From contig DRKT01000175.1 of NCBI GenBank assembly GCA_011053195.1, positions 1 through 39,471 of the forward strand: a DNA stretch of 39,471 bases, given 5' to 3'. The DNA is from Phycisphaerales bacterium (GTDB lineage Bacteria; Planctomycetota; Phycisphaerae; Phycisphaerales; UBA1924). The notes beneath the pieces are model-generated. The model saw only the letters and a list, made by a program, of their open reading frames with translations. It made no database searches and had not been told where the DNA came from. Each line of letters opens with the position of its first letter. Position 1 is the stretch's first letter. Positions 6,480 to 34,119 of this stretch are shown in pieces. The position numbers and the translations under genes are program-made.

Positions 6480-7490
6480 TCAGCCCTTGCCGCAGGCGTC
6501 GCCGCTGCAGTTCTTGCTGCACCCTTTTTGATCGGAATCCTTCGCAGCACAGGCCCCATCGCCCTCGCACGAGCCGTTCTGGGCACAGGCGCCCTTGTTG
6601 TTCTTGTTCTGCATCATGGCGCACGAGCTTCCGCCCTGACAGGCTTTTCCTTTGCCGCGGGAGCCTTGCATGCGGCACGCGCTGTCACCGGCCTTCATGG
6701 CCTTGAGCGAATCAACAATATCACCCGGCTCGGCTCGGAGTTTGTAATCGACCTCGACAAAGGCATAGCGGATCACGCCATCGGTGTCGATGACGTACGT
6801 TGCGGCCAGCGGGAGGGTTTTCGAGTCGTCACCGTTGATCTCGGCGATGTACTCGGCGAACCCCTCACCGAGCGAATCCGGGACGGTGTAGCGGATGCCG
6901 AACGCATCCGCGACGGTGTTGCCGGGGTCGCTGAGCACGGTGAAATCGAGATCGAGCTTCTCTTTGGTCGAAATCGAGTTGTCCGGTGTCTGCGGGCTGA
7001 TGGCGACGAGCTGGGCGTCGAGTTCCTTGAAGTCGTCGAGATGCTCCTGATAGGCGTGGAGCTGGATGTTGCAGAATGGGCACCACCCGCCCCGGTAGAA
7101 GGTCAGCACAACGGGGCCGGCCTCGAGCAGGTCGGAAAGCTGGACGGTTTCGCCGGTGGCGTCGGGGAGTTGGAAGTCCGGGGCGGTCTGGCCCGCGGTC
7201 AGGGCATGGTCGAGGATGCCGGTGTCTCTGATCTCGTCGAGCGCTTGCTGACGGGCATCGAGCTTGGCCTGATCCGTGCGCTCGGCAGCCATGGCGGCCA
7301 TCTCGTTGAGCTTGGTCTGCATGGGGCCGGGCTCGGCCTGGGCGTGCGGTTGCTTGCATTTGCCGCACTGGGCGTTTGCTGCCCCGACGGGAGCCGCGGA
7401 GACAAGCAGCCCGAGAGCCGCCATCTGGGCGAGTTCGACGGTGCGGTGTCCGATGGAATCGATGCCGAAACGTGCGGGTCGTGGGAGCAT
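6480..7490 (-). CDS. Exported peroxiredoxin-like (AhpC/TSA, redoxin) protein with a Cys-rich C-terminal tail
   Basis: 'VVLTFYRGGWCPFCNIQLHAYQ' redoxin active-site motif; signal-peptide-like N-terminus; tail with 9 Cys in the last ~65 residues. Confidence 0.88.
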   Translation of the reverse strand: MLPRPARFGIDSIGHRTVELAQMAALGLLVSAAPVGAANAQCGKCKQPHAQAEPGPMQTKLNEMAAMAAERTDQAKLDARQQALDEIRDTGILDHALTAGQTAPDFQLPDATGETVQLSDLLEAGPVVLTFYRGGWCPFCNIQLHAYQEHLDDFKELDAQLVAISPQTPDNSISTKEKLDLDFTVLSDPGNTVADAFGIRYTVPDSLGEGFAEYIAEINGDDSKTLPLAATYVIDTDGVIRYAFVEVDYKLRAEPGDIVDSLKAMKAGDSACRMQGSRGKGKACQGGSSCAMMQNKNNKGACAQNGSCEGDGACAAKDSDQKGCSKNCSGDACGKG

Positions 7491-7740
7491 TGGGTGTCTT
7501 CCTTTGCGTGGCTGGGGTCGTGGCGGTCGATCTGGCGCCGACACACTACCACACGCTGGCGAACCGGTCCGGAGACTGGCCTATTCCATTTCCGAGGCAG
7601 CCATGGTTTGGGATGGTACTTTGGGCAAGGGCTTGTGGTTCGGTCAGGGTGGGTACTCCCGCATAAAATAAGGGTTTGTCCGCATGTGGTGAGACGCGGG
7701 TAGAAATGTGGTTTGTGCGGTGAGCGTGCACCCCCTTGCA

Positions 7741-7756
7741 CCCCATAATTATGGGG
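7741..7756. repeat. Perfect 16-bp palindrome CCCCATAATTATGGGG
   Basis: Identical to its own reverse complement; in the intergenic region upstream of the TA pair. Confidence 0.85.
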
Positions 7757-7879
7757 GTAGTAGCCCAAACAACGCAGAATTACGGATTTTCTGGAATTCG
7801 ATAAACAAGAAATCCTGATATGTCGTATGATGGGTATGGCCTCTATATGGGTCTTGTGTGAGTCATGGAGTGTGCAGCA

Positions 7880-8176
7880 ATGGGTGGTGTTTCAGCAAAG
7901 GTGGATAAGCGCGGTCAGATCACCATTCCGGCCGAGATCCGGAAATCCCTGAAACTCGAGGACGATTCGCTGGTGATTATCGAGTTGACGGATGAAGGAA
8001 TCCTGATCAAGCCCGCGATCGTGACCCCGGTGACGCCGGAGGAATACACGCAATACCGGGTCGCCGAGTTTTTGCTCAACAATGCAGTCGGCAATGATGA
8101 TTATCAGCAGGCAAGGCAGACGGTTGAGGAAATGGGACTGGATCCGGATGAGATCGCGCATGATAAGCCATGCTAG
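7880..8176 (+). CDS. AbrB/SpoVT-type antitoxin (SpoVT-AbrB swapped-hairpin domain)
   Basis: 'SAKVDKRGQITIPAEIRKSLKLEDDSLVIIELTDEGILIKP' is a classic AbrB-domain pattern. Upstream in-frame start also at 7865. Confidence 0.9.
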   Translation: MGGVSAKVDKRGQITIPAEIRKSLKLEDDSLVIIELTDEGILIKPAIVTPVTPEEYTQYRVAEFLLNNAVGNDDYQQARQTVEEMGLDPDEIAHDKPC

Positions 8177-8188
8177 AGTTGCTGCCGC

Positions 8189-8635
8189 ATGGATCGCCTA
8201 TTCCTCGATGCCAATATTCTATTTTCGGCGGCCTATCGTGAAGACAATCTCTCGGGTCTGCGGAGGCTCTGGGACTGTGGTGCCGAGTTGATCACATCTG
8301 ATTATGCCTTTATCGAAGCAATCAGGAATTTGCGGAACAAGTCGAAGGATCTGGATTGGTCGCTCGATTTTTTATATGGGCTGATGCGGAACGTCACGCT
8401 ATGCAATGACTTGCCAAAGAATGGAATAGTGGTCTTTCAGAACAGTTTGTATACGCAGGATATTCAACTGCCGGACAAGGACTGGCCGATTCTGCTATCT
8501 GCGATTACATGCGAGGCGACGCACCTTCTGACCGGTGACAGACAGCACTTTGGTCCGTTGTTCGGCCGTGATATCATGGGTGTGCGCATTTGCCGGCCTT
8601 CGGACTACCTGTCAGCGCACGATACGCAGCAGTAG
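8189..8635 (+). CDS. PIN-domain toxin
   Basis: 'RLFLDANILFSAAYR' N-terminal PIN Asp motif, 'TSDYAFIEAIRNL', 'LPDKDWPILLSAITCEATHLLTGDRQHFGPLFG' C-terminal acidic motif; 12-nt gap from the antitoxin. Confidence 0.87.
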   Translation: MDRLFLDANILFSAAYREDNLSGLRRLWDCGAELITSDYAFIEAIRNLRNKSKDLDWSLDFLYGLMRNVTLCNDLPKNGIVVFQNSLYTQDIQLPDKDWPILLSAITCEATHLLTGDRQHFGPLFGRDIMGVRICRPSDYLSAHDTQQ

Positions 8636-8684
8636 CCCTCCGATATGCGGGTGGAATCGCAATGAACCATCACAGAATCCGGCT

Positions 8685-9785
<1,101 letters not shown>

Positions 9786-9943
9786 GATGGGGGCTCCGTT
9801 TTGGTTGTGTCCATGTTCGGATCGGCGGATTCTAGGCGCGACTGGTGGAAATGCCGGGCGATTTCTCGGCCACCGTGCGTAACGCGGGGGGAGGGGTTCC
9901 GTATCACATCCGTGGGGCCTCGAAGTGGGGCCCGGGCCTTGGG

Positions 9944-10960
9944 ATGAAGGAGTTGGTGATGCGGACGTTGGTTGGATCGGCATGTGTGGTGGCCTTGGTT
10001 TCAGGTTCGGCGCTGGCAAGCCCACCGGTGCGCAAGCACATCGACCCCGAGGCCCAGTGGGTGGTCCACCTGGATCTCGATGCCCTGAACGATTCGGAGA
10101 TCGGTTCGTGGCTGATGGAGCAGGCGGCCGAGGACAGCGACGACTTCGAGGATGTTCGCCAAGTGCTGCCCGGGTTCTGGCCCGGCCCGGATGGCGGGCT
10201 CACGGGCGTCACGCTCTATGGCCAATCGCTCGACATGGAGGAGGAGCAAGGGTGGAGCAGCTTCGCAGCGATCATCTATGGCGATGATCGGATCACGGAT
10301 TGGGGCGAGCAGCTCGAACACGCGGCGGAACAGGATGGTGCCGGCGATGCGGTGCGCCACCGCACGGTCAACGGGCACGAGTCGTGGTCGATCCCGATGG
10401 ACGATGATGCCCGGGCGTACATGGCGCTGGTCGAGCATGGCCGACGGGCCGCGTGGGTGGTGACGTTCGCCCCGGGCCAACTGAAGCACGCGCTGGGCAT
10501 TGTCGACGATGGATCGGGCGGAAGTGAATTACTCGAAGGCGGCTGGGACGACGGCGTGATCGGTTTCGCCGGCACACTGTCACTCAACAGCATCGACGAT
10601 GACGGTGGATTAACAAGGATTCTTGGTGATTCGGTGGCCTTGGCTGCCCGCGTCGGCGAGGTCGATGGCGAGGTGACACTCGAAGCCGCGATCGACACGG
10701 GCGACGAGGAAAAATCCCAAGCATTGATGGGCATCGCCAACGGGCTGGTCAGTGCCGGCGTGCTCGCATCCGGTCAAGATGAGGACCTGGACCGCCTGAT
10801 GGAGGTCATCGGCGATGTCGAGATGGATGTTGACGGCTCGCTGTTCGTGCTCTCGCTGACCCGCGATGCCGACGAAGTGATCGAGTTCCTGGAAAGCGTG
10901 GACGATGGCGAGTTGCTCGACGGTGATTTCGACGACGATGACGATTGGGACGACGACTGA
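9944..10960 (+). CDS. Exported hypothetical protein with poly-Asp C-terminus
   Basis: Signal peptide '[23 protein letters not shown]'; acidic protein ending '[13 protein letters not shown]'; good coding continuity. Confidence 0.75.
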
Positions 10961-10968
10961 ACACGACG

Positions 10969-11547
10969 ATGACCATTCGACGCGAGACGGCTGCGTCGGG
11001 GCCCGGCCCCGGCGTAGCTGTTTGTGCGCCGACAGATGCCGAGCTCGCGGTGCGGTCGGCATCGGGCGATCGGTCGGCGTTCGAGGTGTTGGTGAATCGG
11101 TGGCAGGGGCGGGTGTTTCGGTTCGTGCTCGTGCGCGTACGCGATGAGCACGATGCAGCCGAGGTGACGCAGGAGACGCTGATGCGGGCGTTCCGTTCCA
11201 TCGGCCGGTATCACTCGGGGCGGAGTTTCTCGACATGGCTCTTTGCGATTGCGCACCGGGAATCGGTCAACGTGATCCGCCGCCGGTTGCGGTCGGCGCG
11301 CGATGCGCAGCGAACGATAGAGCCGTCTGATTCGGATGGAGATGAACTGCCGGACGTGTGGGCGCTGGCCCGGCGTGTGCTGGATGACAAGGGGTTCGAG
11401 GCGGTGTGGCTTCGGTATGTCGAGGATCTCGAGGCCGGCGAGATCGCAGTGGTGATGGGCCGGTCTGCGGTCGGTGTGCGGGTGCTGCTGCACCGGGCGC
11501 GCACGAAGCTGGCGTCGGCTCTGGAAGAAACAAGCGGGGTGGCTTGA
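10969..11547 (+). CDS. RNA polymerase ECF-type sigma factor
   Basis: Region 2 'DRSAFEVLVNRWQGRVFRFVLVRVRDEHDAAEVTQETLMRAFRSIGRY...FSTWLFAIAHRESVNVIRRR' and region 4 'AVWLRYVEDLEAGEIAVVMGRSAVGVRVLLHRARTKL'. Confidence 0.92.
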   Translation: MTIRRETAASGPGPGVAVCAPTDAELAVRSASGDRSAFEVLVNRWQGRVFRFVLVRVRDEHDAAEVTQETLMRAFRSIGRYHSGRSFSTWLFAIAHRESVNVIRRRLRSARDAQRTIEPSDSDGDELPDVWALARRVLDDKGFEAVWLRYVEDLEAGEIAVVMGRSAVGVRVLLHRARTKLASALEETSGVA

Positions 11548-11996
11548 TGGGCACGAACAGACACACGGTAAATGATGTGGAGCGTCGGCTTCGGGCCGAT
11601 CAGCCGGGGCATGTCGAGCCGCCGGGCTGGGTGCGCCCGCACGTGCTCGCGGGCATCGACCGGGACACGCCCGAGGCCCGATCCATGCCGGGAGGCTGGG
11701 CTGTGCTGGTCGGGGCGCTCGGCGTGGCGGTGCTGGTGATCGGCGTGATCGGTGTGTTTCGGATGACGGGCCAATCCTCGGCAACGACGCCTCAGGCGAA
11801 AGTCCGGATCGCCTCGGCGGAAGAATTCCAGACCCCGACCGCCGGGCCGGCGATCAACCTCTCGATTCCGACGAAGGTTCTGACGCCCGGAACACTGGAG
11901 CGCGAGACGCAGCGGCTTCGGCAGGATGTCGTCCAACTCGCCGATGTGGTGCGCAAACCCATACGTCGGCTCGGAATGGGGCTGAGCCGATTCTGA
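11547..11996 (+). CDS. Single-pass membrane protein, candidate anti-sigma factor
   Basis: TGATG overlap with the ECF sigma stop; cytosolic N-terminus, one TM segment (WAVLVGALGVAVLVIGVIGVF), exported C-terminus. Confidence 0.7.
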   Translation: MGTNRHTVNDVERRLRADQPGHVEPPGWVRPHVLAGIDRDTPEARSMPGGWAVLVGALGVAVLVIGVIGVFRMTGQSSATTPQAKVRIASAEEFQTPTAGPAINLSIPTKVLTPGTLERETQRLRQDVVQLADVVRKPIRRLGMGLSRF

Positions 11997-12012
11997 GCGG
12001 ATACGCTCGGGC

Positions 12013-13104
12013 ATGGATGAGTTCGATGTGGCGGTCGTCGGGGGCGGTCCGATCGGGATCGAGATGCACGCGGCGCTGGTCGCGGCCGGCAAGCGCGTCG
12101 TGCATTTCGAGGCCGGCCGGATCGGGCACACCTTCAGCTGGTGGGCGCCCAGGACCCGGTTCTTCTCGAGCCCGGAACGGATCGCGATCTGCGGCGTACC
12201 CCTGCGCACGCCGGACCAGGGCAAGGCGTCCGCCGAGCAGTACGGCGACTACCTGCTGGCCGTCGTCGAACAGTTCGGGCTCAATATCAAAACATTCGAG
12301 CGTGTCGATCGCATCGAACGAGACAACGATGGCGGCTTCGTGCTGCACCACGCGCCAAGCCGGGTCGGGGTCGGCGGTCAGGAGATCGACGAGGAGATCG
12401 GTTTCGGCGCCGGCGAGCGCCCGGTCCGCGCCAGGCACGTGGTTCTGGCGATCGGCAACATGCACCGGCCTCGCGCGGTGGGCGTGCCGGGTGAGACGCT
12501 GGCGCACGTGAGCCATTACCTCGGGCATCCGGGCGACTACTTCGACAAGCGCGTGGTGATCGTGGGCGGGAAGAACTCGGCCGCGGAGGCGGCGATCCGA
12601 CTGTACCGGGCCGGTGCGCACGTGACGCTGAGTTATCGAGGCGATGAATTGGATGCGGGGCGGATCAAGTATTGGGTGTTGCCGGAACTCGTGTGGCTGA
12701 TCGAGAAGGGCCGGGTCGAGTTTGTACCGGAAACAAGGCCGGTGGAGATCCGACGTGATGCGATCGAGCTGGCCGGGCGAGAGGGCCGGGTTGTGCTGCC
12801 GGCGGACTTTGTGCTGCTGCTGACCGGTTATGTGCAGGACGGAACGTTGTACGACCAGTTGGGTTTGGATCGGATTGGTGAATCGCGCCGGCCGAGGCTG
12901 GACCGCGAGACGATGCAGACCAGCGTGCCGGGGATTTTCGTGGCGGGGACCGCAAGCTCGGGGAGCCAGACCCGGGCGAAGGTTTTTATCGAGAACAGCC
13001 ATGCGCACGTGGACCGGATTTGCCGGGCGATCGCGGGCGTCGGTGTGCCCTGGAAGCTCGACGAGGTGATGGAGGGGCTGGGGCAACTGGATGAGGAGAT
13101 GTGA
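12013..13104 (+). CDS. FAD/NAD(P)-binding oxidoreductase, YpdA/thioredoxin-reductase-like
   Basis: Rossmann motifs 'DVAVVGGGPIGIEMHAALVAAGKRVVHFEA' and 'VVIVGGKNSAAEAAIRLYRAGAHVTLSYRG'; 'PGIFVAGTASSGSQ'. Confidence 0.82.
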   Translation: MDEFDVAVVGGGPIGIEMHAALVAAGKRVVHFEAGRIGHTFSWWAPRTRFFSSPERIAICGVPLRTPDQGKASAEQYGDYLLAVVEQFGLNIKTFERVDRIERDNDGGFVLHHAPSRVGVGGQEIDEEIGFGAGERPVRARHVVLAIGNMHRPRAVGVPGETLAHVSHYLGHPGDYFDKRVVIVGGKNSAAEAAIRLYRAGAHVTLSYRGDELDAGRIKYWVLPELVWLIEKGRVEFVPETRPVEIRRDAIELAGREGRVVLPADFVLLLTGYVQDGTLYDQLGLDRIGESRRPRLDRETMQTSVPGIFVAGTASSGSQTRAKVFIENSHAHVDRICRAIAGVGVPWKLDEVMEGLGQLDEEM

Positions 13105-13119
13105 GCACGGCAGCCGTGT

Positions 13120-13506
13120 TCAGGGTCGGTAGGTGGTGGCGCAGCCGGGGGATTCGGTGATGCTGACCGCCGCGATTTTGGCGTGCGGTTCGAGGGCGAC
13201 GCCGAATCGGCTGTGCATCTCGTTGAAGATGTATTGGGCGATGTTCTCGGCGGTGGGGTTGAGCCCGCCGGCGGGCTGGTTGAAGGGCGCGATTTCGTTG
13301 AGGTTGGCGTTGTTGAACTCGGCGAGTATGGCGTCGAGGGATGCCTTGGCGGTGTGGAAGTCGCAGACGAGCCCGTCCTGATCGAGCCGGTCGCCCTTGA
13401 TTTCGACGGTGGCGAGGAAGTCGTGGCCGTGGAGCGTTTCTCGCTGCCCGGCGATGACCAGGGCATGGGCCGCGGAGAAGGTCGATTGCACGGTGATGGT
13501 GAACAT
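13120..13506 (-). CDS. queD: 6-carboxy-5,6,7,8-tetrahydropterin synthase
   Basis: PTPS fold motifs 'FSAAHAL', 'LHGHDFLATVEIKG', 'LVCDFHTAKASLDAIL', 'PTAENIAQYIF'. Confidence 0.88.
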   Translation of the reverse strand: MFTITVQSTFSAAHALVIAGQRETLHGHDFLATVEIKGDRLDQDGLVCDFHTAKASLDAILAEFNNANLNEIAPFNQPAGGLNPTAENIAQYIFNEMHSRFGVALEPHAKIAAVSITESPGCATTYRP

Positions 13507-13558
13507 GGAGCTAGGGTAGGGTGGGAATCGGCACCGTGGAAAAGAAAGGACGGAGCGG

Positions 13559-14965
13559 ATGGGTGAGGCGCCATTGATGGTTGGCGTGAGCGGGCTGCGG
13601 GGGATCGTGGGGCGGAGCCTGACGTCCGAGGTGGCCGTGCGGTATGCGCAGACGGTCGGCGCGTGGCTTGCAGAGCAATCGCCGGCGCCCGCGGTCGTGG
13701 TGGCCAGGGATGGTCGGGCCGGCGGCGATGCGATCTATGCCGACGCGATCGAAGGCTTGCTCGACGCGGGTGTCGATGTGTTCGAGGCGGATGTCTGCAT
13801 GACGCCAACGGTCGGGGTGATCGTTGATGAGCTGAATCTGGCCGGTGGCGTGATGGTGACGGCAAGCCATAACCCGCAGCAGTGGAACGGGCTCAAGGTG
13901 ATCCGAGGCAGCGAGGATGGTGCGTGTGCGCCAGACGCCGAGGCTGCAGCCGCGATCGTCGATCGGTTCAACAGCGGATTGTCGGCCTCGGGATCAAAAG
14001 GCAAGCCGAAGCGTCTGGACTTTGATCCGTCCGCCCGGCACACCGAGCGCGTGGTCGGGCACCTCGGTCGGCTCGGGCGATCGTTCCGGGTTGTGGTGGA
14101 TTCGGTGAACGCCTCGGGCCGGATCGCATCACCGATGCTGATGTCGGCGCTCGGGTGCGAGTTGGTTCGACACCTCGGCAGCGACGATTCGGGGATCTTT
14201 CCCCACACGCCGGAGCCGACGCGGGACAATCTGTCGGGCAAGGGCGGGCTGTGCGATGTGGTCGCGGAAATCGGGGCGGATGTCGGCTTCGCGCAGGACC
14301 CGGATGCGGATCGGCTGGCGATTGTGGATGAGAACGGGGCGTACATCGGGGAGGAGTTGACGCTGGCGCTGTGCGCGGTCTCGGTGCTCGAGGCGGTCAA
14401 GCCCGAGGCCGGGACACCGATGCTGTGTACGAATCTTTCGACCTCGCGGATGATCGACGATGTGGCGGCTCGGTACGGGGCCAAGGTCGTGCGCTCGGCT
14501 GTTGGTGAGGCGAACGTGGTCGAGGCGATGAAACGGCTCAAACGCGAGGGCAAGACGGTCGTGCTCGGGGGCGAGGGCAACGGCGGGGTGATCTGGCCGG
14601 AAGTGACGTATGTACGCGATTCGCTGTCGGCGATGGCGCTCGTGCTGTCGCTGATGGCCAGGACCGGCAAGCGTCTGAGCGATCTGGTGGCGGATGTGCC
14701 GGCGTATGCGATTGTCAAACGCAAGCAACCTCTGGCGAGGAAAGAGGATGCGGTGCCGGCGCTCGAGCGGGTGGCCTCGGCGTATGCAGACCAGCGTGTG
14801 GACCGTCAGGATGGGGTGCGGGTGGATTTCGATGCGGACCGGTCGTGGGTGCATGTCCGGGCGAGCAACACGGAGCCCATTCTGAGGCTGATCGCCGAGG
14901 CCCCGACCGCCGAGCGGGCCGAATCGCTGCTGGATGAGGTCCACCGGCTCGTGGATGCGGGCTGA
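13559..14965 (+). CDS. glmM: Phosphoglucosamine/phosphohexomutase
   Basis: 'GVSGLRGIVG', catalytic 'VMVTASHNPQQWNGLKVI', metal site 'QDPDADRLAIVDENG', 'GGEGNGGVI', 'VRASNTEPILRLIAEA'. Confidence 0.9.
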   Translation: MGEAPLMVGVSGLRGIVGRSLTSEVAVRYAQTVGAWLAEQSPAPAVVVARDGRAGGDAIYADAIEGLLDAGVDVFEADVCMTPTVGVIVDELNLAGGVMVTASHNPQQWNGLKVIRGSEDGACAPDAEAAAAIVDRFNSGLSASGSKGKPKRLDFDPSARHTERVVGHLGRLGRSFRVVVDSVNASGRIASPMLMSALGCELVRHLGSDDSGIFPHTPEPTRDNLSGKGGLCDVVAEIGADVGFAQDPDADRLAIVDENGAYIGEELTLALCAVSVLEAVKPEAGTPMLCTNLSTSRMIDDVAARYGAKVVRSAVGEANVVEAMKRLKREGKTVVLGGEGNGGVIWPEVTYVRDSLSAMALVLSLMARTGKRLSDLVADVPAYAIVKRKQPLARKEDAVPALERVASAYADQRVDRQDGVRVDFDADRSWVHVRASNTEPILRLIAEAPTAERAESLLDEVHRLVDAG

Positions 14966-14980
14966 CTATACTGGGCTTCC

Positions 14981-15232
14981 ATGAACCAGCAGCACATCGA
15001 ACCGGGACAGCGGGTGCGCATCACGCAGCAGATCCCTCGTCAGAGCGGCTCCCAGGCGGCGACCGTCGAGGGCACGGTGGTGTCGATCGGACAATCCAAG
15101 ACCGGCTCGTGGTATGCCCACGCCAAGGACCACAAGCTCTGGCTCGAACGGCTGGAACTCGAGAAAGACGACGGCGAGCGGGTGCTGCTCAATCTCGACC
15201 AATACTCGCGGATTGATGTGATCCCGGCGTAG
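14981..15232 (+). CDS. Small hypothetical protein (83 aa), beta-rich
   Basis: ORF immediately after glmM; coherent beta-strand-like sequence 'QAATVEGTVVSIGQSKTGSWYAHAKDHKLWLERLELEKDDGERVLLNLDQYSRIDVI'. Confidence 0.7.
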   Translation: MNQQHIEPGQRVRITQQIPRQSGSQAATVEGTVVSIGQSKTGSWYAHAKDHKLWLERLELEKDDGERVLLNLDQYSRIDVIPA

Positions 15233-15465
15233 GTCCGACCTTCCACAACCGGAGAAAAATCGACGGGTGCGGTTGGTGTGCGCGCACCGTCGCGGGCATG
15301 GCGGGTTGGATTCGGGATCGGCAAAGATTTTTTCATGGTGTCCGGTGAAGGAGTTGCGCGCGAGGGTGCCGCTGCGGGGATGCCGGTGTGCGCGCATGGA
15401 TGGGCGCGCGACGTTTGGGTGTGGGGACGACGAATTCGGCCCGGCAGTCAAGCGGAGGACACCAG

Positions 15466-17034
15466 ATGGCAAGCGTGGGCGGCACGGCGGAAGGGGAAGC
15501 AAGGCCGGGGGCAGCGGCGGGGCTCGACCCGGCGCTCGTGGATCATCTGATCCATGAGCACGAAACCCAGTGTTCAGAACTGAACACGTTGTGGGAATAC
15601 TACAGAAATCCGGTGCGGATCGTGCAATCGACGGGAGCGGACGGGCTGAGCCGGAGCGTGCGCCGACTGGCGCAGGAGGCCGGGCTGCCCGGGCGTGTGA
15701 CCGGCCTGCGGCGCGACGGGCTGGCCGACGATCGGCACGCCGGTCGGCGCGAGGTGGTGATCGAGAACGACATCGCTTGGCGAGTCCACACGATGATCGA
15801 CTTCCTGTTCGGGAAGCGACCGAACATCGTCAGCACCGCCGGGCAGGAGGGCCTGCGCGAGCAGATCGAGGCGTTGGTGGAGTCGGCGTGGGATGCCTCG
15901 GGCGGGCTCGAACTGATGCAGGACCTGGCGCTGCTGGGGCATGTGTTCGGGCATGTGGACCTGGTGCTTCGGGTGGATGACGAGGCGCTGACGCTTGCCG
16001 CCCGCCGGGCCGCGAGGATGCGTCAGAGCGGCGTATCGGTCCGGCAACTCCGCGGGCTGATGCGTGAGGCCGGGGCCGCCTTTCGGATCGAACCGGTCTC
16101 GCCGACGCGGGGGATTCCGATCGCGGATGCATCGGATTATCGCAAAATCTCTGGATATGTGATCCATTACGAGCGGGAGGCCAACTCGGTCGAACGGGTC
16201 GGGTTGCGGAAGAAGCTGATCGGGCGCGAGCGCGGGACGTGGGGCCGTCGGCGTCGGCATGAGTCCTACACGGAGGTGTTCGGGCCGAACGGGCACGAGC
16301 TGTGGGTCGGCGAAGAGCTCGTGGAACTCGACGATGGCGGTGTGCAATCGGGGCAGGTGCCGGTGGTGCATATCCAGAATCAGTCCCAGCCGCTGCGGTA
16401 TGAAGGGGTCGGCGAGGTCGAGCCGCTGCTGATGCTTCAGGACGAGCTGAACACGAGGCTGAGCGATCGGGCGAGCCGGGTGACGCTTCAAAGCTTCAAG
16501 ATGTACCTGGCCAAGGGGATCGACGGGTTCGAGCGTGTGCCGGTGACGCCGGGAACGGTGTGGTCGACGGACAACCCCGACGCCTCGGTCGAGGCGTTCG
16601 GCGGGGATGCGTCCAGCCCGAGCGAGGATCGGCACATCGGCGAGATCCGGCAGGCACTGGACAAGATCAGCGGCGTCCCGCCGGTCGCCAGCGGTGTGGT
16701 CGAGGCCAGAATCGGCAATCTGACCAGTGCCAACGCGCTGCGCGTCACGATGGTTGGGTTGATCAGCAAAACGAACCGCAAGCGCGTGACGTATGGGCGC
16801 GGGCTGATCGGGATCAGCTCGATGGTGATCGACGCGGCGCTGCGGAGCGGATTGATCGAGGCCGGTCTTGGAGATCGGCAGATGAAACTGGAGTGGCCGG
16901 ATCCGCTTCCGATTGATGACCAGGAATTGGCTGCATCGGCGCGGATCCGGCGCGAGCTCGGTGTGCCCGCGGATCGGGTCGCCGAGCAGCTCGGGTTCGT
17001 CCCGACGGAACTTGAAACAAAGGAGGGTGTGTGA
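15466..17034 (+). CDS. Phage portal protein (SPP1 gp6-like)
   Basis: 'DELNTRLSDRASRVTLQSFKMYLAKG', 'GEIRQALDKISGVPPVASG...LTSANALRVTMVGLISKTNRKRVTYGRGLIG' pattern typical of SPP1-type portals; SD 'ggagg' before ATG. Confidence 0.83.
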   Translation: MASVGGTAEGEARPGAAAGLDPALVDHLIHEHETQCSELNTLWEYYRNPVRIVQSTGADGLSRSVRRLAQEAGLPGRVTGLRRDGLADDRHAGRREVVIENDIAWRVHTMIDFLFGKRPNIVSTAGQEGLREQIEALVESAWDASGGLELMQDLALLGHVFGHVDLVLRVDDEALTLAARRAARMRQSGVSVRQLRGLMREAGAAFRIEPVSPTRGIPIADASDYRKISGYVIHYEREANSVERVGLRKKLIGRERGTWGRRRRHESYTEVFGPNGHELWVGEELVELDDGGVQSGQVPVVHIQNQSQPLRYEGVGEVEPLLMLQDELNTRLSDRASRVTLQSFKMYLAKGIDGFERVPVTPGTVWSTDNPDASVEAFGGDASSPSEDRHIGEIRQALDKISGVPPVASGVVEARIGNLTSANALRVTMVGLISKTNRKRVTYGRGLIGISSMVIDAALRSGLIEAGLGDRQMKLEWPDPLPIDDQELAASARIRRELGVPADRVAEQLGFVPTELETKEGV

Positions 17035-17531
17035 TGAGGGGTGTCTCAAGCGGGAACGATGGTGGCAGCGGCGGGGGAACCGGCGGGCCGGGAGATGGCG
17101 ATCGGGATCGGCCGCCGGAGACGATCAAGCCGGAGGACCGCCCCTGCGACGAGCAGGTGCAGGAGCTTCAGGCGGAGCTTGCCCAGTTGAAGGAACAGCT
17201 CGCGCAGGCGCAGTCGGCGCTGATCGAGCAGAAGCAGGCGCAGGAGCTGGAGCAGCAACTGGTCGAGGCCGGGGCGATTGATGTGGAGACGGCCAAGGTA
17301 CTCGCCGAGGCCAGGCTGCGGACGGGTGATGCAACGATCGAGGAGGTTGTTTCAGAACTCGCAGCATCGAAGAAGTTTTTGTTTCGTTCGCGGAAGAAAT
17401 CGGCCGCCGGGAGTGCAGTGTCGGGTTCGCCGAGCGCGATGAAGACACCGCTGGAGGATCTGGCGGATCAGGCGAGGCAGACGGGCGATCGGCGGGCGCT
17501 GCTGAGGTATCTGCGTCAGCGTCGCGGTTGA
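17034..17531 (+). CDS. Coiled-coil protein, candidate capsid scaffold
   Basis: Start overlaps the portal stop (GTGATG); SD 'aaaggaggg'; Q/E/A-rich heptad region 'QVQELQAELAQLKEQLAQAQSALIEQKQAQELEQQLVEAGAID' followed by a basic C-terminus; position between portal and MCP is canonical for scaffolds. Confidence 0.75.
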   Translation: MRGVSSGNDGGSGGGTGGPGDGDRDRPPETIKPEDRPCDEQVQELQAELAQLKEQLAQAQSALIEQKQAQELEQQLVEAGAIDVETAKVLAEARLRTGDATIEEVVSELAASKKFLFRSRKKSAAGSAVSGSPSAMKTPLEDLADQARQTGDRRALLRYLRQRRG

Positions 17532-17626
17532 GATTCGATTGGGATTTGTGTTTCGGGACAGGGTGAAGGTCGCGGCTCGCGGCCGGTGGTATCGGTGCGG
17601 GCTGCTTTTTTGAGGAGCAATACAGA

Positions 17627-18796
17627 ATGGCATTTACAGGGAAAGCGACATATGGGGCGGGTTCGGACCTGCCGGAGCTTGTCGAGGATGTGAGTGATGT
17701 GATCGGGATCGTGTCGCCGTTCGAGACGCCGCTGCTGAATCATCTCGGCGATCCGAAGCGGGCGGCGCAGAGCACAGTGCACGAGTGGGTCGAGGATCAG
17801 CTTCTGGCCAACGCGGATGCGATCAACCAGACGACATTCACGCCGGGGCCGACGACGGCGACCTCGATCACCGTGGACAACGGGAGCCGGTTTCAGGTCG
17901 GTGATCTTGTGCAGCCCGATGGTTCGGGCGAGGTGATCTTCGTCGCGGCGATCTCGGGCGACACGCTCTCGGTGATCCGTGGATACGGGGCGACGACGGC
18001 GGTGGCGCTGGCGGACAACATGGTGCTGAACATCCTGGGCAATGCGGCACTCGAAGGTGACGATGCGCCGGCGGCTCGGTTCACCAGCCGAACGCGGAAG
18101 CAGAACTTCACGCAGATTTTCACGGCTGCGGTCGAGGTCTCGGGCTCGATGCAGGCTTCGCGGGCGTACGGCGTCGAGGACGAGGTCGATTACCAGAAGC
18201 AGGAACGGATGCGCGAGCTGCTGCGCGATCTCGAGAACTGTGTGATCAATGGTGTCGCACCGACGACCAACCAGATCGGAAGCTCGTCGGTCCGCCGATC
18301 CATGGATGGGATCATCCCGATGATCGAGACCAACGACTTCGCACCGGGCCAGGGCGGTCTGCCCTCGGGTGGCGGCACGAACAGCGATGAGCTGACGGAA
18401 GAGCTGCTCAATGCAGCGCTGCGGTTGGTGTGGGACCAGTCCGGCGGTTCGATCGACACGATTGTGGTCGGCGGGGCGCAGAAGCGCAAGATCAACGAGT
18501 TTGCCTCGGCGAGCCGTCAGTATCTGCCCGAGGACACGGCGTATCGGGACATGATCAGCGTGTACGAGAGCGATTTCGGCGTGTGCCGGATCGTTCTGAG
18601 CCGATGGACCCCGCCGGACACGCTGCTGCTGCTTGATTCGTCGCGTCTCGAGGTGATGCCCCTGCAGGGCCGGAGCTTCCACTTCAAGCCCCTGGCGGCC
18701 TCGGGTGATGCGTTCAAGGGACAGGTGATCGGTGAATACACACTCGAGATGAAGAACGAGAACGCGCACGCGAAGCTGCAGGGCCTTGCGGTGTGA
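17627..18796 (+). CDS. Major capsid protein, SU10-type (HK97 fold)
   Basis: 'DLPELVEDVSDVIGIVSPFETPLLNHLGDPKRAAQSTVHEWVEDQL' N-terminal signature, 'KQNFTQIFTAAVEVSGSMQASRAYGVEDEVDYQKQERMRELLRDLENCVINGV', 'YESDFGVCRIVLSRW'. Confidence 0.85.
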   Translation: MAFTGKATYGAGSDLPELVEDVSDVIGIVSPFETPLLNHLGDPKRAAQSTVHEWVEDQLLANADAINQTTFTPGPTTATSITVDNGSRFQVGDLVQPDGSGEVIFVAAISGDTLSVIRGYGATTAVALADNMVLNILGNAALEGDDAPAARFTSRTRKQNFTQIFTAAVEVSGSMQASRAYGVEDEVDYQKQERMRELLRDLENCVINGVAPTTNQIGSSSVRRSMDGIIPMIETNDFAPGQGGLPSGGGTNSDELTEELLNAALRLVWDQSGGSIDTIVVGGAQKRKINEFASASRQYLPEDTAYRDMISVYESDFGVCRIVLSRWTPPDTLLLLDSSRLEVMPLQGRSFHFKPLAASGDAFKGQVIGEYTLEMKNENAHAKLQGLAV

Positions 18797-18855
18797 TCGG
18801 ACGAGCGAAGGTGTGAGGGTTGGCGTGCGGGCTATACGGGGGGCCCGGCGCCGGT

Positions 18856-18881
18856 CCGGCCGGTGCGAGAGTGCCGGCCGG
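18856..18881 (+). repeat. 11-bp hairpin with GAGA tetraloop (ccggccggtgc-gaga-gtgccggccgg)
   Basis: Arms pair fully with two G-U wobbles; intergenic between MCP and the next ORF. Confidence 0.8.
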
Positions 18882-18915
18882 GCTTTGACGGATTGGTTGC
18901 ACAAAGGAGGTCGGG

Positions 18916-19566
18916 ATGTTTGCACAGGATCGGGACCTGGTGGTGTATGAGCCGAGGCTGTTTCTTGATGTGGTCTGGCTCGGTCAGCGTCTGGCCTCGG
19001 AATCGGGCCAGGTGATCAGCAGCGTTGCGGTGGCCAGCGGGGCTTCGTTTGTCTCGCTTGGGATCATGCCGGGGCAGATCGTGAACTATGACGATGCGTC
19101 GTATGAGATCGTGCAGGTGCTCGGCGCGACGCAGCTGGGGATCTCCCGGCCGAGGGCGAGCACGAGCGACCCGGTGGTGCCAACGCCGGACTCAGCCCTG
19201 ACGACGTTCACGATTTATACATTTGCACATCAATTGGCGATCGTGCACGGGCAGATCCTGCGGATGCTCGGGATCGAGCCGGACGTTGTGGCCCAGCCGG
19301 GCGAGACGGTCATCACGGAGTCGAACATTCTGAATCCCGGCGCGCTGGTCCGGCTGGAAGCGCTCGGGGCGCTGCATCTGATTTTCTCGGCGGCGAGCGC
19401 TTCGGGTGTGGCGGGTGATGGGGGCGGGTTCGCCGAGCGGGCCGCGATGTATCGGGAACGGTTCATCGCGGAGCGGTCGCGGGTGAGCGTGCTGATCGAT
19501 GCGGATGGTGATGGCAAGGCCGAGGCGACGCGCCGGCCGAGCGTGATGCACTTTGTGCGCGGCTGA
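18916..19566 (+). CDS. Hypothetical head-completion/connector-like protein
   Basis: SD 'aaaggagg' 5' of ATG; co-directional after MCP; C-terminal 'AAMYRERFIAERSRVSVLIDADGDGKAE' is connector-like. Function inferred mainly from position. Confidence 0.65.
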   Translation: MFAQDRDLVVYEPRLFLDVVWLGQRLASESGQVISSVAVASGASFVSLGIMPGQIVNYDDASYEIVQVLGATQLGISRPRASTSDPVVPTPDSALTTFTIYTFAHQLAIVHGQILRMLGIEPDVVAQPGETVITESNILNPGALVRLEALGALHLIFSAASASGVAGDGGGFAERAAMYRERFIAERSRVSVLIDADGDGKAEATRRPSVMHFVRG

Positions 19567-19584
19567 TGTGACTGGGGGTGGATT

Positions 19585-19989
19585 GTGCTTGTGCTTGGTC
19601 CTGAATCGGTGGTGTTCGACGGTGATGCGTGGTCTGGTGTTGATCTGGTCGCGGTTGATCGGATCTCGGCGAAGGAGATCGTGGAGTATGGCGATTCCGG
19701 GCCGCAGGTGATCTTTGCGGATGTGGTGCAGAGCCGGGTGAACGTGAGGGTGGTGCTGGGGCTGGAGCGGAGCGAGCTGCTCGGGCCGGCGCCCGGGGAT
19801 GAGGGGCTGTTCGAGTTTCGCGCCGGGTTTGGTCGGACCGATGTGGGCTGGGTTCGTGTATCGATGACGGCTGTAGTGCAGCGTGTGACGCACGAGTTGA
19901 CGCCGGGCGGCGTGAAGCGCGTGGTGCAGATGGTGGCGGTGTCGTCGGACGGCGTGACGGACCCGGTGACGGTGGAGGATGTGACGTGA
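19585..19989 (+). CDS. Hypothetical phage-like structural protein (134 aa, beta-rich)
   Basis: GTG start; overlaps the next ORF by 4 nt; beta-strand-rich; part of the co-directional cassette. Confidence 0.6.
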   Translation: MLVLGPESVVFDGDAWSGVDLVAVDRISAKEIVEYGDSGPQVIFADVVQSRVNVRVVLGLERSELLGPAPGDEGLFEFRAGFGRTDVGWVRVSMTAVVQRVTHELTPGGVKRVVQMVAVSSDGVTDPVTVEDVT

Positions 19990-20369
19990 CAACGGGCAGT
20001 TCGTGGAAGGGCGTGGATCTATTCGGGTCCGGGCCACACCGGTTTTATCTTGGTCGCCGCGGGTTCTTGGTGTTGCCCGACGATTCGAGCGCGATCCCGA
20101 CGCCGAACATGGTGGACTACGGCTCGCTGGAGTGGGAGGTCGTGATCGTGGGTCGGCTGGTGTCTCCGACGGAATCGGGTTTGTGGGTGCTTCGCGATGC
20201 GATCCAGGCCTCGCTGGATGCCAAGGGGCTTGGGACACTTGTGGATCTGAATGGTCGATCGTGGACGAACCTGTTTTTTTCGCGGATCGAGTGGGCCGAG
20301 CGGACGGACCGAGGGCGGAAGGTGAGCATCGGGTACACGGCAAAGTTTCATAAATTCAATGGTGTATGA
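19986..20369 (+). CDS. Hypothetical phage-like structural (tail/connector-like) protein (127 aa)
   Basis: GTGA overlap with the upstream stop implies translational coupling; 'WVLRDAIQASLDAKGLGTLVDLNGRSWTNLFFSRIEWAERTDRGRKVSIGYTAKFHKF' reads as a small tail-type protein. Confidence 0.6.
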   Translation: MTTGSSWKGVDLFGSGPHRFYLGRRGFLVLPDDSSAIPTPNMVDYGSLEWEVVIVGRLVSPTESGLWVLRDAIQASLDAKGLGTLVDLNGRSWTNLFFSRIEWAERTDRGRKVSIGYTAKFHKFNGV

Positions 20370-20387
20370 TGAAATGACGGATGGGTG

Positions 20388-20678
20388 ATGATTGAGACGG
20401 AGTTGGCCGGTGCTGTGGCGCAGATGGGGGCGGCTGGGTTGATCGGCCTGATGTGGCTGAGCGAACGCCGGGCCGCGCACGATCGGGAGCGGCAACTCAG
20501 CGAGGTGCACGACCGGATCAAGGCGGACAAGGTGGAGCTCGGCGTGCTGCTTTCGGCGCTCGAGGCGAACACGCGGGCACTTGTGTCGCTGGAATCAGGC
20601 CAGGCAAGGCTGGTTTCGGTGATCGAGAAGATGGATCAGCGGGAGCGGTCGGCTGAGTCGGGGATTGTCAAGCCGTAG
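20388..20678 (+). CDS. Small TM + coiled-coil protein (holin- or anchor-like)
   Basis: N-terminal hydrophobic segment 'LAGAVAQMGAAGLIGLMWL', then a charged coiled-coil; final ORF of the cassette. Alternative GTG start at 20385. Confidence 0.65.
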   Translation: MIETELAGAVAQMGAAGLIGLMWLSERRAAHDRERQLSEVHDRIKADKVELGVLLSALEANTRALVSLESGQARLVSVIEKMDQRERSAESGIVKP

Positions 20679-20721: not shown

Positions 20722-21240
20722 ATGAGGTTCGGTGTTGTGTTGAGTCTGGTGCTGGGTGTGGGAGTGCTGGGCTCGTGTGCGCCGGCGGGGGGGGTGTTGC
20801 CGGAGCGGATCGAACTGGGTGAGCTTTCGGCGTTTGCGCCGGTGTCGCTTCGGATCAGCCCGCTGACCCGACTTGAGCCCGGGCTGGATGGTCGACCGGA
20901 GCTGGCGTTGTATTTTGAGTTGCAGGACCGGTGGGGGCACGGCACGAAGGCGCCGGGGGTGGCGCAGATCCAGTTGTATCGCGTCGGCGGTGTGTCGCAG
21001 GGGTTGGCGACGCTGGCGGATCGGTGGGAGGCGGATCTGACGGACCCGGATCAGAACTCGGTGCTGTTCGATGTGACGGGGATGTACCGGGTGCCGCTGG
21101 CGGGATTGCCGGGATGGCTCTCGTCGCGGGCGGATGGCACGGGCGGGTATGAGCGCGTGCGCATCCGGGTGTTCTTCCGGACGGTCGGGCCGGGGGGTGA
21201 GACGATCGACCTGCGCGACACGTTCGAGAAGGATTTTTAG
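20722..21240 (+). CDS. Lipoprotein, hypothetical
   Basis: Signal peptide with lipobox 'LGVGVLGSC'; immediately follows the capsid cassette. Confidence 0.7.
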   Translation: MRFGVVLSLVLGVGVLGSCAPAGGVLPERIELGELSAFAPVSLRISPLTRLEPGLDGRPELALYFELQDRWGHGTKAPGVAQIQLYRVGGVSQGLATLADRWEADLTDPDQNSVLFDVTGMYRVPLAGLPGWLSSRADGTGGYERVRIRVFFRTVGPGGETIDLRDTFEKDF

Positions 21241-32545: not shown

Positions 32546-34075
32546 ATGATGATGCGACAGAATCAGCGGAGCCGGTTCTTGCCGGTGCGACTTTCGGCGG
32601 CTCTTGTATGCGCAGCCGGTCTTGTGATGGGCTCGGCCCAGGCGGCGGAGTTTTCAACCGGAATCGAATGCGCGATCGCCGAGGGCCCGACGCACGAGAT
32701 CCTGCTGACCAACGGGCAGACCGTCAAGGTCTCGATCGTCAAGGAATCGCCGAGGGAGGTCGAGGTGATGGTCTACGTCGGCAACCTCTCGGCGCCGCGG
32801 ACGTACCAGCGCTCGGAGATCATCTCAATTACGGAGCTCTCGCACAGCCCGTCGGCGGAAGATGACGGGGCGGAGGCTTCGGATGAGTCGGCGGTCACGA
32901 TGACGCGGGTGTCGAGCTCTGACGCGGACATCCCGGCCGATGCGGTCAAGGTCTTTGTGATCGAGCTGAAGGGGAAGTTCGGGTTTGATGTTTCGGTGAC
33001 GCCCGTGCGCAAGGCGATGGACCGCGCCCGCGAGCTCGGCGCGGATGTCGTGATTGTCAAGTGCAACAACGACTGGAAGACGCTCGAGGGGTTCACCGAC
33101 GAGAAGACGGACGACGAGGGCAAGTTCGAGGAGTATCGCTTTGCCGAGGCCATCGCGCCGGTGTTCACGACGGACACGATCACGAAGTGGGAGAAGGAGC
33201 CACAGGTCGTGTTCTGGGTTGAGCGGGCGATGAGCGGCATGGCGTTCCTGCCGATGGTCAAGCCCGACATCTACTTCACGAGTGATGGCCGAATGGGCGG
33301 CGTGGGGGATCTCGACAGCCTGTTCGACGGCGTGGGCGATGAGGTTGTGCGCGACAAGCAGAAGTCGCTCCGGCTCGGGCATGTCGAGGGCATGGCGATC
33401 GAGGGCGGGCACGATCCGAAACTGATCCGTGCGATGACGAGGAAGAGCTATGTGCTGAGCTATCGGATCGTCGGCGGCGAGCCGGAGTATCTCGAGGGCG
33501 AGGCGCCGGGTTGGGAGCTGCTGACCGATGATGGCAAAGATGAGAACGCCGACACGGATCGGGACCTGGTCCGCGGGCTGGGCAACGATGCGCTGACATT
33601 CACCGCGGATCTGGCCAAGAAGCTCGGGGTTTCCAAGGGGACCGCCGACACGTTGGATGATCTGCTCTTCGAGATGGGCATCGACGATCGCGCCTACATC
33701 CTCGACGACAGCGACGAGGACGGGCTCTCCGACAAGGGCCAGCGGGAGCTGGAGGACTGGTCGCAGGGCATCGCGCGGGCGCAGCAGAAACTGCGCCGGC
33801 TCCAGTTCGACATTGCCAATGTCGAGGTCCGCCCGCAGCGCAACGACCCCGACGGCTCCAAGGCGCGCAACAGCGCCCGGGGCAAGCGGCTCCGTCTGAT
33901 CAATGAGGCCATCGGGTTGCTCAACCGGTACGGCGAGGTGCTCGACCCTGGTGAACAGCTCCGTGTTCAGCTCGAGCTCCAGAAACAGCAGATCGAGAAC
34001 GAGAAAAGGTTGGAGCGCACCCGTCGTGGTGGCGGAGGCCGGCGGGGGCGCAGCGGTGGCGGCGGTGGCGGCTGA
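32546..34075 (+). CDS. Exported ClpP/crotonase-fold protein, NfeD/S49-like, with Gly/Arg-rich C-terminus
   Basis: Signal peptide; small beta domain 'LTNGQTVKVSIVKESPREVEVMVYVG'; ClpP-like region 'KVFVIELKGKFGFDVSVTPVRKAMDRARELGADVVIVKCN'; ends GGGGRRGRSGGGGGG. Confidence 0.65.
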   Translation: MMMRQNQRSRFLPVRLSAALVCAAGLVMGSAQAAEFSTGIECAIAEGPTHEILLTNGQTVKVSIVKESPREVEVMVYVGNLSAPRTYQRSEIISITELSHSPSAEDDGAEASDESAVTMTRVSSSDADIPADAVKVFVIELKGKFGFDVSVTPVRKAMDRARELGADVVIVKCNNDWKTLEGFTDEKTDDEGKFEEYRFAEAIAPVFTTDTITKWEKEPQVVFWVERAMSGMAFLPMVKPDIYFTSDGRMGGVGDLDSLFDGVGDEVVRDKQKSLRLGHVEGMAIEGGHDPKLIRAMTRKSYVLSYRIVGGEPEYLEGEAPGWELLTDDGKDENADTDRDLVRGLGNDALTFTADLAKKLGVSKGTADTLDDLLFEMGIDDRAYILDDSDEDGLSDKGQRELEDWSQGIARAQQKLRRLQFDIANVEVRPQRNDPDGSKARNSARGKRLRLINEAIGLLNRYGEVLDPGEQLRVQLELQKQQIENEKRLERTRRGGGGRRGRSGGGGGG

Positions 34076-34119
34076 GCGCACGGAAACAGACGGGTCACAG
34101 GATTGAGTGAGGATTGGAT

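Follow-up and report, generated by a model that had tools for sequence, protein, structure and literature searches.

Organization of the head cassette

Why would the chromosome of a Phycisphaerales bacterium keep an intact set of phage head genes among its housekeeping genes? The window, by which we mean the whole stretch of 39,471 nucleotides analysed here (contig DRKT01000175.1 of assembly GCA_011053195.1), carries at 15466-20678 of the forward strand seven intact, co-directional ORFs, which encode in order a portal, a scaffold, a major capsid protein (MCP), proteins of 216, 134 and 127 aa, and a 97-aa protein with a transmembrane (TM) segment and a coiled coil (Table 1). The portal gene starts with ATG, preceded by the Shine-Dalgarno sequence GGAGGA, and overlaps of 4 bp join the portal to the scaffold gene and the 134-aa to the 127-aa ORF. 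Both this layout and a host-like base composition had been predicted from the letters of the window, and both were borne out, the former by the ORF positions and the matches to PF05133, PF17236 and the phrog families, the latter by a GC content of 0.644 for the cassette and 0.639 for the window. The unit that is conserved comprises the cassette, the lipoprotein gene behind it and the upstream promoter region, whose repeated sites were aligned in five genomes and whose pattern was then searched genome-wide. The u83 ORF, possibly a host gene, is found near the cassette in genomes of families f1 (that of the window) and f5, either upstream or downstream.

Table 1. Features of the head locus, in coordinates of the window
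Feature	Position	Strand	Evidence or conservation
u83, conserved 83-aa ORF	14981..15232	+	kept in 14/30 loci
Head-operon promoter region	15233..15465	+	repeated TTGNGCG ... TGTGCGCNC sites, one pair at 15354-15395
Portal protein, SPP1 gp6-like	15466..17034	+	PF05133 1.8e-12; phrog_104 1.1e-18
Coiled-coil scaffolding protein	17031..17531	+	phrog_194 9e-8; PF06810 8e-7, under its cut-off
MCP, SU10 type	17627..18796	+	PF17236 SU10_MCP 8.6e-92; phrog_1328 1e-80
216-aa conserved protein	18916..19566	+	kept in 29/30 loci; without family match
134-aa all-beta protein, predicted tail-tube fold	19585..19989	+	AF2 pLDDT 81
127-aa protein, predicted baseplate/distal-tail or tail-terminator-like fold	19986..20369	+	AF2 pLDDT 80
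97-aa protein, N-terminal TM and coiled coil, holin/spanin-like	20385..20678	+	kept in 25/30 loci
Lipoprotein (lipobox LGSC), end of operon	20737..21240	+	kept in 16/30 loci

The structural comparison proposed along with the original prediction succeeded for the MCP, which matched the PDB entries 9ny2 and 7z45, and returned nothing for the portal in an HMM search of the PDB. The three small ORFs, which had been described as connector- or tail-like, fared differently. The model of the 134-aa protein folds like a tail tube, its best Foldseek matches being phage or diffocin tail-tube/collar proteins (prob 1.00, TM 0.5-0.6, E ~2e-3), and the model of the 127-aa protein bears a weak likeness to baseplate and terminator folds, its top match being the baseplate chain of a phage (E 3e-4, TM <0.55). 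The 216-aa protein, for which an HMM search of the PDB gave calcium-binding noise and no phage matches, may be a head-tail adaptor, a role suggested by its place in the gene order. The 97-aa protein weakly matched phrog_89 (Rz-like spanin, 0.003) and phrog_1625 (0.008), and our guess for the lipoprotein is a role in lysis or at the outer membrane. As anticipated, neither a terminase nor an integrase was found in the window region, and nor was a tRNA; the 7-8 genes of the cassette include no protease and no tape measure.

The terminase lies in a separate operon with a predicted self-cleaving repressor

The original prediction proposed a capsid-only or split GTA-like system, and the finding of a terminase elsewhere in the genome supports the split. 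A single-copy TerL, whose tree follows that of rpoB, is encoded on a different contig of the same MAG (L092:12155-13630), so that capsid-only does not hold for the genome as a whole. TerL belongs to a conserved operon, which has a palindromic operator and also encodes a CI/LexA-type (S24) repressor, an HTH protein, an ABC ATPase and a GNAT protein; families f4-f6 add a ParB-like protein. Whether the lineage of the window has a separate TerS is uncertain. As far as its residues tell, the repressor has what LexA/CI-type self-cleavage takes, an intact Ala-Gly site and Ser-Lys dyad, and A159-G160, S198 and K236 do not vary among 8 aligned sequences drawn from several families. The operator dyad, of the type GTTCA-N8-TGAAC, occurs in exact form at five terminase loci, and all the head loci compared lack it. 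Since a search near the head operon gave nothing beyond chance, one simple operator does not govern both loci.

The separation of the two loci recurs in other genomes. In the sister genomes G001 and G002 the head and terminase genes share one contig, with MCP at 255520 and TerL at 201087 in the former, and MCP at 401434 and TerL at 342634 in the latter, a distance of 53-58 kb; in the closed genomes G184 and G338 the loci are 980 kb and 167 kb apart. Moreover, the two genes occur together. Among 294 Planctomycetota genomes 38 carry both, 4 and 5 carry one of the two and 247 carry neither (Fisher p 1e-37, on counts that are not phylogenetically independent). Among 61 relatives, TerL occurs without MCP in five, including G036 with a broken portal and G056 with a portal fragment, and MCP without TerL in four; these mismatches stem partly from incomplete assemblies. 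Note that outside the class TerL matches at the C-terminal nuclease region only (29-39% identity), which makes orthology there less certain.

With the terminase in place, one could still ask whether the cassette makes an encapsulin-like nanocompartment derived from a phage capsid protein, as a shell protein of HK97 fold within a chromosomal operon might suggest. A portal, a scaffold, a tail-tube-like protein and a terminase do not fit such a compartment, no cargo enzyme is linked to the locus, and we consider this explanation almost certainly wrong.

A mobile origin deserves more attention: a capsid-carrying island of the cf-PICI kind, or an active prophage split in two, would account for a minimal head set combined with the CI-like repressor typical of temperate phages and satellites, and both the repressor and its operator are phage-like. 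However, neither locus has integrase or replication genes, and no att repeats flank them; integrase and mobile distribution characterize the cf-PICIs, while here each genome holds a single copy, in conserved positions, at loci up to 980 kb apart and with gene trees that match rpoB. True integrative elements insert into these genes instead. A mobile satellite or split prophage is thus very improbable.

The system is vertically inherited under purifying selection

The MCP is present in 49 of the 61 relatives, mostly in single copy and with 60-85% identity, and TerL in 50 (47-73%). MCP identity tracks kinship, from 83-85% within the genus through 60-72% in the family, 60-66% in the order and 54-62% in the class to mostly 46-55% in the phylum. 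In the synteny comparison proposed with the original prediction, the seven-gene order was found again in dozens of further genomes, far above chance, and the cassette adjoins glmM in families f1, f5, f6 and f9, and argS in f30; family f2 has no part of the system. The MCP tree shares 13 of 23 splits with the rpoB tree and the TerL tree 12 of 23, shuffled trees sharing 0.3 on average and 4 at most; the few supported conflicts make some horizontal exchange possible. The dN/dS values are 0.10-0.13 for MCP, 0.17-0.22 for the portal, 0.29-0.45 for the scaffold, 0.18-0.21 for the lipoprotein, 0.12-0.18 for TerL and 0.18 for the repressor, with the host gene pfk (0.14-0.16) as comparison. The cassette is therefore under purifying selection and vertically inherited in conserved positions.

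These results bear on the idea that the cassette is a decaying prophage remnant whose head genes survived by chance. A locus without integrase or a full tail set would look like this, and some relatives are indeed decaying: in G045 the MCP is deleted after codon 50 and TerL has a stop, the only other TerL that looks broken being that of G008 (frameshift), and a few more distant genomes have frameshifts or deletions. Against this, the ORFs are intact in nearly all relatives, with dN/dS of 0.1-0.2 over a dS of ~1, the trees resemble that of rpoB, and neighbours and order are conserved across families. In the lineage of the window, att sites and a neighbouring prophage are absent, dN/dS is nowhere near 1 and relatives of the same genus are free of frameshifts, so the genes are maintained, as had been supposed from their intactness, and survival by chance is highly unlikely. 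TerL had also appeared in several pieces in G044, G048 and G053; we rejected these as breaks because they are single ORFs with insertions.

Several marks of a gene transfer agent (GTA) are found here in the genes: viral head, portal and terminase genes in the chromosome, inherited vertically under purifying selection, free of integrase and replication genes and at loci too far apart to move as one unit. Such an agent would also fill its particles mostly with random host DNA and deliver it to recipients. The cassette is, quite probably, the head operon of an ancient GTA-like DNA-packaging particle that was domesticated and is passed on vertically, with its genes divided among two or more loci of the chromosome.

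Tail genes differ between families

The window's family is reduced to two tail-like proteins, and family f4 is without even those. A tape measure, a receptor-binding protein and an endolysin were not detectable in the window's lineage, and a 534-aa hub query taken from the tail genes of f5 found no match in f1 or f4 genomes. This poverty would suit a domesticated capsid, possibly tailless, with a use other than transfer, such as DNA storage, kin killing or the delivery of proteins or signals. However, the sister families f5, f6 and f9 retain collar, hub and adhesin-like genes, and TerL and the portal are kept under selection, which makes DNA packaging almost certain. We judge a non-transfer capsid unlikely, albeit the most credible of the alternatives.

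Proposed mechanism and relation to known systems

For the GTA-like particle we propose the following working scheme. The CI/LexA-type repressor would silence the HTH-ABC ATPase-GNAT-TerL operon from its GTTCA-N8-TGAAC-type operator until DNA damage leads to its self-cleavage, as the intact A-G, Ser and Lys residues suggest; the system is probably under SOS control. The head operon would be turned on from its own promoter, in which the TGTGCGC sites recur, with the HTH protein as a possible activator. A prohead would then be assembled from portal, scaffold and SU10-type capsid protein and packed by TerL, presumably with host DNA, given that the structural genes lie too far apart for co-packaging; for the same reason, self-transfer in one particle is very unlikely. 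Chemical modification of the packaged DNA may fall to the ABC-GNAT pair, since such pairs are predicted DNA-base modification systems (PMC7824862); the pair here is likewise adjacent and beside a terminase, in this case within a chromosomal terminase operon, and its function is a predicted one. Finally, a minimal tail of tube ring and distal ring, the holin-like protein and the lipoprotein may serve closure and release.

RcGTA is inherited vertically across a whole order under purifying selection, with parts at several loci (PMC11841831). Our system shares with RcGTA (Rhodogtaviriformidae) the virus-derived head and terminase genes, the mode of inheritance, the selection and the several loci. 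It differs in that the terminase has its own repressor-controlled operon outside the head cluster, in the predicted DNA-modification genes and in the far fewer tail genes of the window's family; the terminase, protease and tape measure that belong to an RcGTA-like cluster are absent from the 7-8-gene cassette. The capsid proteins differ as well: that of RcGTA is of the Phage_capsid (PF05065) type, whereas PF17236 is the sole Pfam match of the SU10-type MCP. Domestication was apparently independent of that of RcGTA.

With phage SU10 and other PF17236 phages the system shares the capsid protein family and probably the head architecture; these phages, however, have replication genes and linked terminases, and the closest cultured-phage proteins reach 32% identity for MCP and 24% for TerL. 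VSH-1 of Brachyspira is induced by DNA damage. In the account of PMC11841831 that cites Stanton 2009, VSH-1/BhGTA is a divided-genome GTA outside the Alphaproteobacteria. The likeness to VSH-1/BhGTA (Brachygtaviriformidae), a divided genome in a non-alphaproteobacterial host, is one of description; the phylum is another one, and VSH-1 is described from Brachyspira only, while the present system is class-wide.

A bolder version is quite possible, and we put it forward tentatively: a class-wide, possibly phylum-old, SOS-triggered GTA of the Planctomycetota, domesticated apart from all known GTAs, which would keep its motor and DNA-modification module under a self-cleaving repressor and its shell elsewhere, and from which the window's family would have lost the greater part of the tail, and a sister family apparently every known tail gene, so that DNA-filled particles would work with a minimal tail or none. 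The review literature holds that new GTAs cannot be discovered by homology. Few lineages have confirmed GTAs, our literature search found no report of a planctomycete GTA, and this system would add one. If true, it bears on gene exchange among planctomycetes and on the long upkeep of costly DNA-shuttling particles.

Two minor observations were also made. In G001 and G004 the head-promoter pattern has a third site, upstream of a gene for a 361-aa AAA ATPase; as reversed-pattern controls gave 0-2 matches per genome, this site is only a lead. Genuine integrative elements insert into genes of the system, and mobile elements that land in its capsid and portal genes would add an angle of conflict.

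A capsid cassette and an unlinked terminase operon

The ORFs originally described in the cassette were confirmed, and portal, scaffold and MCP have family matches (see the table). The window is contig C175 of the source MAG, which is 2.75 Mb long and 96% complete, in 257 contigs. Structure prediction, using alignments of 11 orthologues, suggested that the 134-aa protein is all-beta (pLDDT 81), and the solved folds nearest to its model were phage tail-tube and collar proteins (E ~2e-3, prob 1.00, TM 0.5-0.6). The 127-aa model (pLDDT 80) showed a weaker likeness to baseplate and terminator chains. The 97-aa protein combines a single TM helix with a coiled coil, and its matches, of spanin and bacteriocin type, are weak. 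The last gene of the operon encodes a lipoprotein; the upstream flanking gene was named glmM from its sequence. An 83-aa protein accompanies the cassette in many genomes, mostly upstream, and downstream in loci L035 and L041.

The cassette had been proposed to be a capsid-only or split GTA-like system, and a search for TerL in the rest of the genome had been suggested. A profile search located TerL on another contig of this MAG, C218 (Terminase_6C, 5e-8; phrog_2, 2e-15); by eye, its Walker A motif (RGGGKT) and its nuclease motif (DHAADALRY) are intact. Most of 20 loci keep the surrounding operon: a divergent repressor, an HTH protein, an ABC ATPase, a GNAT-fold protein and TerL. The repressor is of the XRE-HTH/Peptidase S24 type and its Ala-Gly, Ser and Lys are invariant. 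Of the loci compared, five (L092, L094, L095, L107, L108) carry TGTTC-N10-GAACA in the shared intergenic region and no others do; variant dyads occur elsewhere. DNA-base modification has been predicted for a GNAT-coupled ABC ATPase (PMC7824862).

The best explanation for the cassette and the terminase operon is a split, GTA-like system: a particle that packages DNA, has been domesticated and is under a predicted DNA-damage switch. The system would work like a GTA, with putative gene transfer. Membership of the RcGTA family was ruled out by the different capsid family and gene set. Our literature search found no report of a planctomycete GTA; the planctomycete entry in a 2021 study is a prophage TerL alone (PMC7947584).

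Families f4, f5 and f6 have two more genes between GNAT and TerL, one for a ParB-like protein and one for a protein of ~140-170 aa that is a candidate small terminase by position. In some genomes of f1, the family of the window, small ORFs (62-111 aa) immediately precede TerL; these resemble shortened f4-f6 small proteins and are candidate reduced small terminases. In two same-genus genomes, the head-operon promoter pattern also lies directly upstream of an unlinked gene for a 361-aa AAA_25 (RepA/DnaB-like) ATPase, which may belong to the regulon as its third locus.

Features of the cassette, the terminase loci and the inserted elements
Feature	Location	Remarks
83-aa protein	window 14981-15232	
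Portal	within 15466-20678	first of cassette; PF05133, phrog_104
Scaffold	after portal	phrog_194
MCP, SU10-type	after scaffold	PF17236, 8.6e-92
Proteins of 216, 134, 127, 97 aa	in that order after MCP	
TerL	L092:12155-13630	contig C218
ORFs of 62-111 aa	L102:8708-8896; L105:9054-9284; L108:10431-10766	f1
Promoter pattern and AAA_25 ATPase	L184:7421-8630; L185:5433-6643	361 aa
Truncated MCP, G045	L058:9094-9246	lost beyond codon 50
TerL with stop, G045	L101:9227-10669	
~11-kb elements	L055:3880-14780; L054 about 6660-17550, minus strand; L191	large serine recombinase
~24-kb element	G346:1-25640 (IMG/VR); L374:1-507, L375	tyrosine integrase; splits portal gene
41-kb phage	G345 (IMG/VR); L372/L373	own Phage_capsid_3 MCP, TerL, integrase
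GTA-type MCP of the phage	G345 32983-34143	complete, 60%

Distribution, linkage and selection

MCP was present in 49 of 61 relatives, mostly as a single copy; MCP, portal and TerL were all absent from f2 when searched for among these relatives. Across the phylum, 42 of 294 Planctomycetota genomes carry MCP, including same-class genomes of f7, f8 and f9 (54-62% identity) and those of a further family, f30, from another planctomycete group (50-55%). The nearest deposited phage MCP has 32% identity, and only two IMG/VR contigs (G345, G346) have an MCP above 38%. In several f1, f5, f6 and f9 genomes, glmM is a near neighbour of the cassette. In f30 the related head-tail cassette adjoins argS in 6/6 loci read (L245, L246, L249, L254, L255, L256), and includes a lipoprotein, a small TM protein and tail-like genes of about 436, 377 and roughly 1000 aa.

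Gene order from portal to membrane protein is kept in f1, f4, f5 and f6, with tail genes gained or lost. In f5, f6 and f9, collar-like, adhesin-like and hub-like genes follow the connector genes; f1 keeps the tube-like and distal-like proteins alone, and in f4 the membrane protein directly follows the 216-aa protein. Either the f1/f4 tail genes have moved to a third locus, which we did not find, or these particles are tailless or nearly so.

In the same-genus genomes G001 and G002, MCP and TerL share a contig, at distances of 53 and 58 kb, which removes the worry of misbinning. They are ~8.5 kb apart in G044 (f5), with a few host genes between, and ~167 and ~980 kb apart in the single-contig genomes G338 and G184. 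Among the 294 genomes, which are not phylogenetically independent, 38 have both, 4 MCP alone, 5 TerL alone and 247 neither; in genomes outside the class, TerL is mostly matched over the nuclease half alone (29-39%). In the relative G045 both genes are damaged and portal and scaffold remain, as if the two unlinked genes had decayed together.

The proposal that the genes are maintained agreed with their dN/dS (Nei-Gojobori, same-genus pairs, dS about 0.8-1.8): 0.10-0.13 for MCP, 0.17-0.22 for portal, 0.19-0.23, 0.13-0.28 and 0.33-0.37 for the 216-, 127- and 134-aa proteins, and 0.29-0.45 for scaffold, compared to 0.14-0.16 for host pfk and 0.23-0.27 for glmM. The rpoB tree shared 13/23 splits with the MCP tree and 12/23 with that of the unlinked TerL (26 shared genomes), compared to a mean of 0.3 and a maximum of 4 after label shuffling. 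Since a few conflicts are supported, some exchange is possible.

Cassette genes as landing sites

The cassette genes serve other mobile elements as landing sites. In the related genomes G006 and G021, and probably in G008, serine-recombinase elements interrupt the MCP gene near codon 60. The ~11-kb elements encode an AAA ATPase or primase-like protein and a Mu gpT-like capsid protein of their own; the one in L055 also encodes a DNA methylase. The G006 and G021 elements have similar ends (TCCCGTCTGAC ... GTCAGACGGGTA), and G008 has the same 3' junction, so that the MCP gene has repeatedly served as attB. The element in the portal gene of G346 has a 15-bp repeat, GGCAGTGTTTGAGGC, at 429 and 24530. 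Finally, the extra MCP of the G345 phage, which lies beside the phage's own capsid gene and adjoins a scaffold fragment (found in L292), is perhaps a hijack or decoy.
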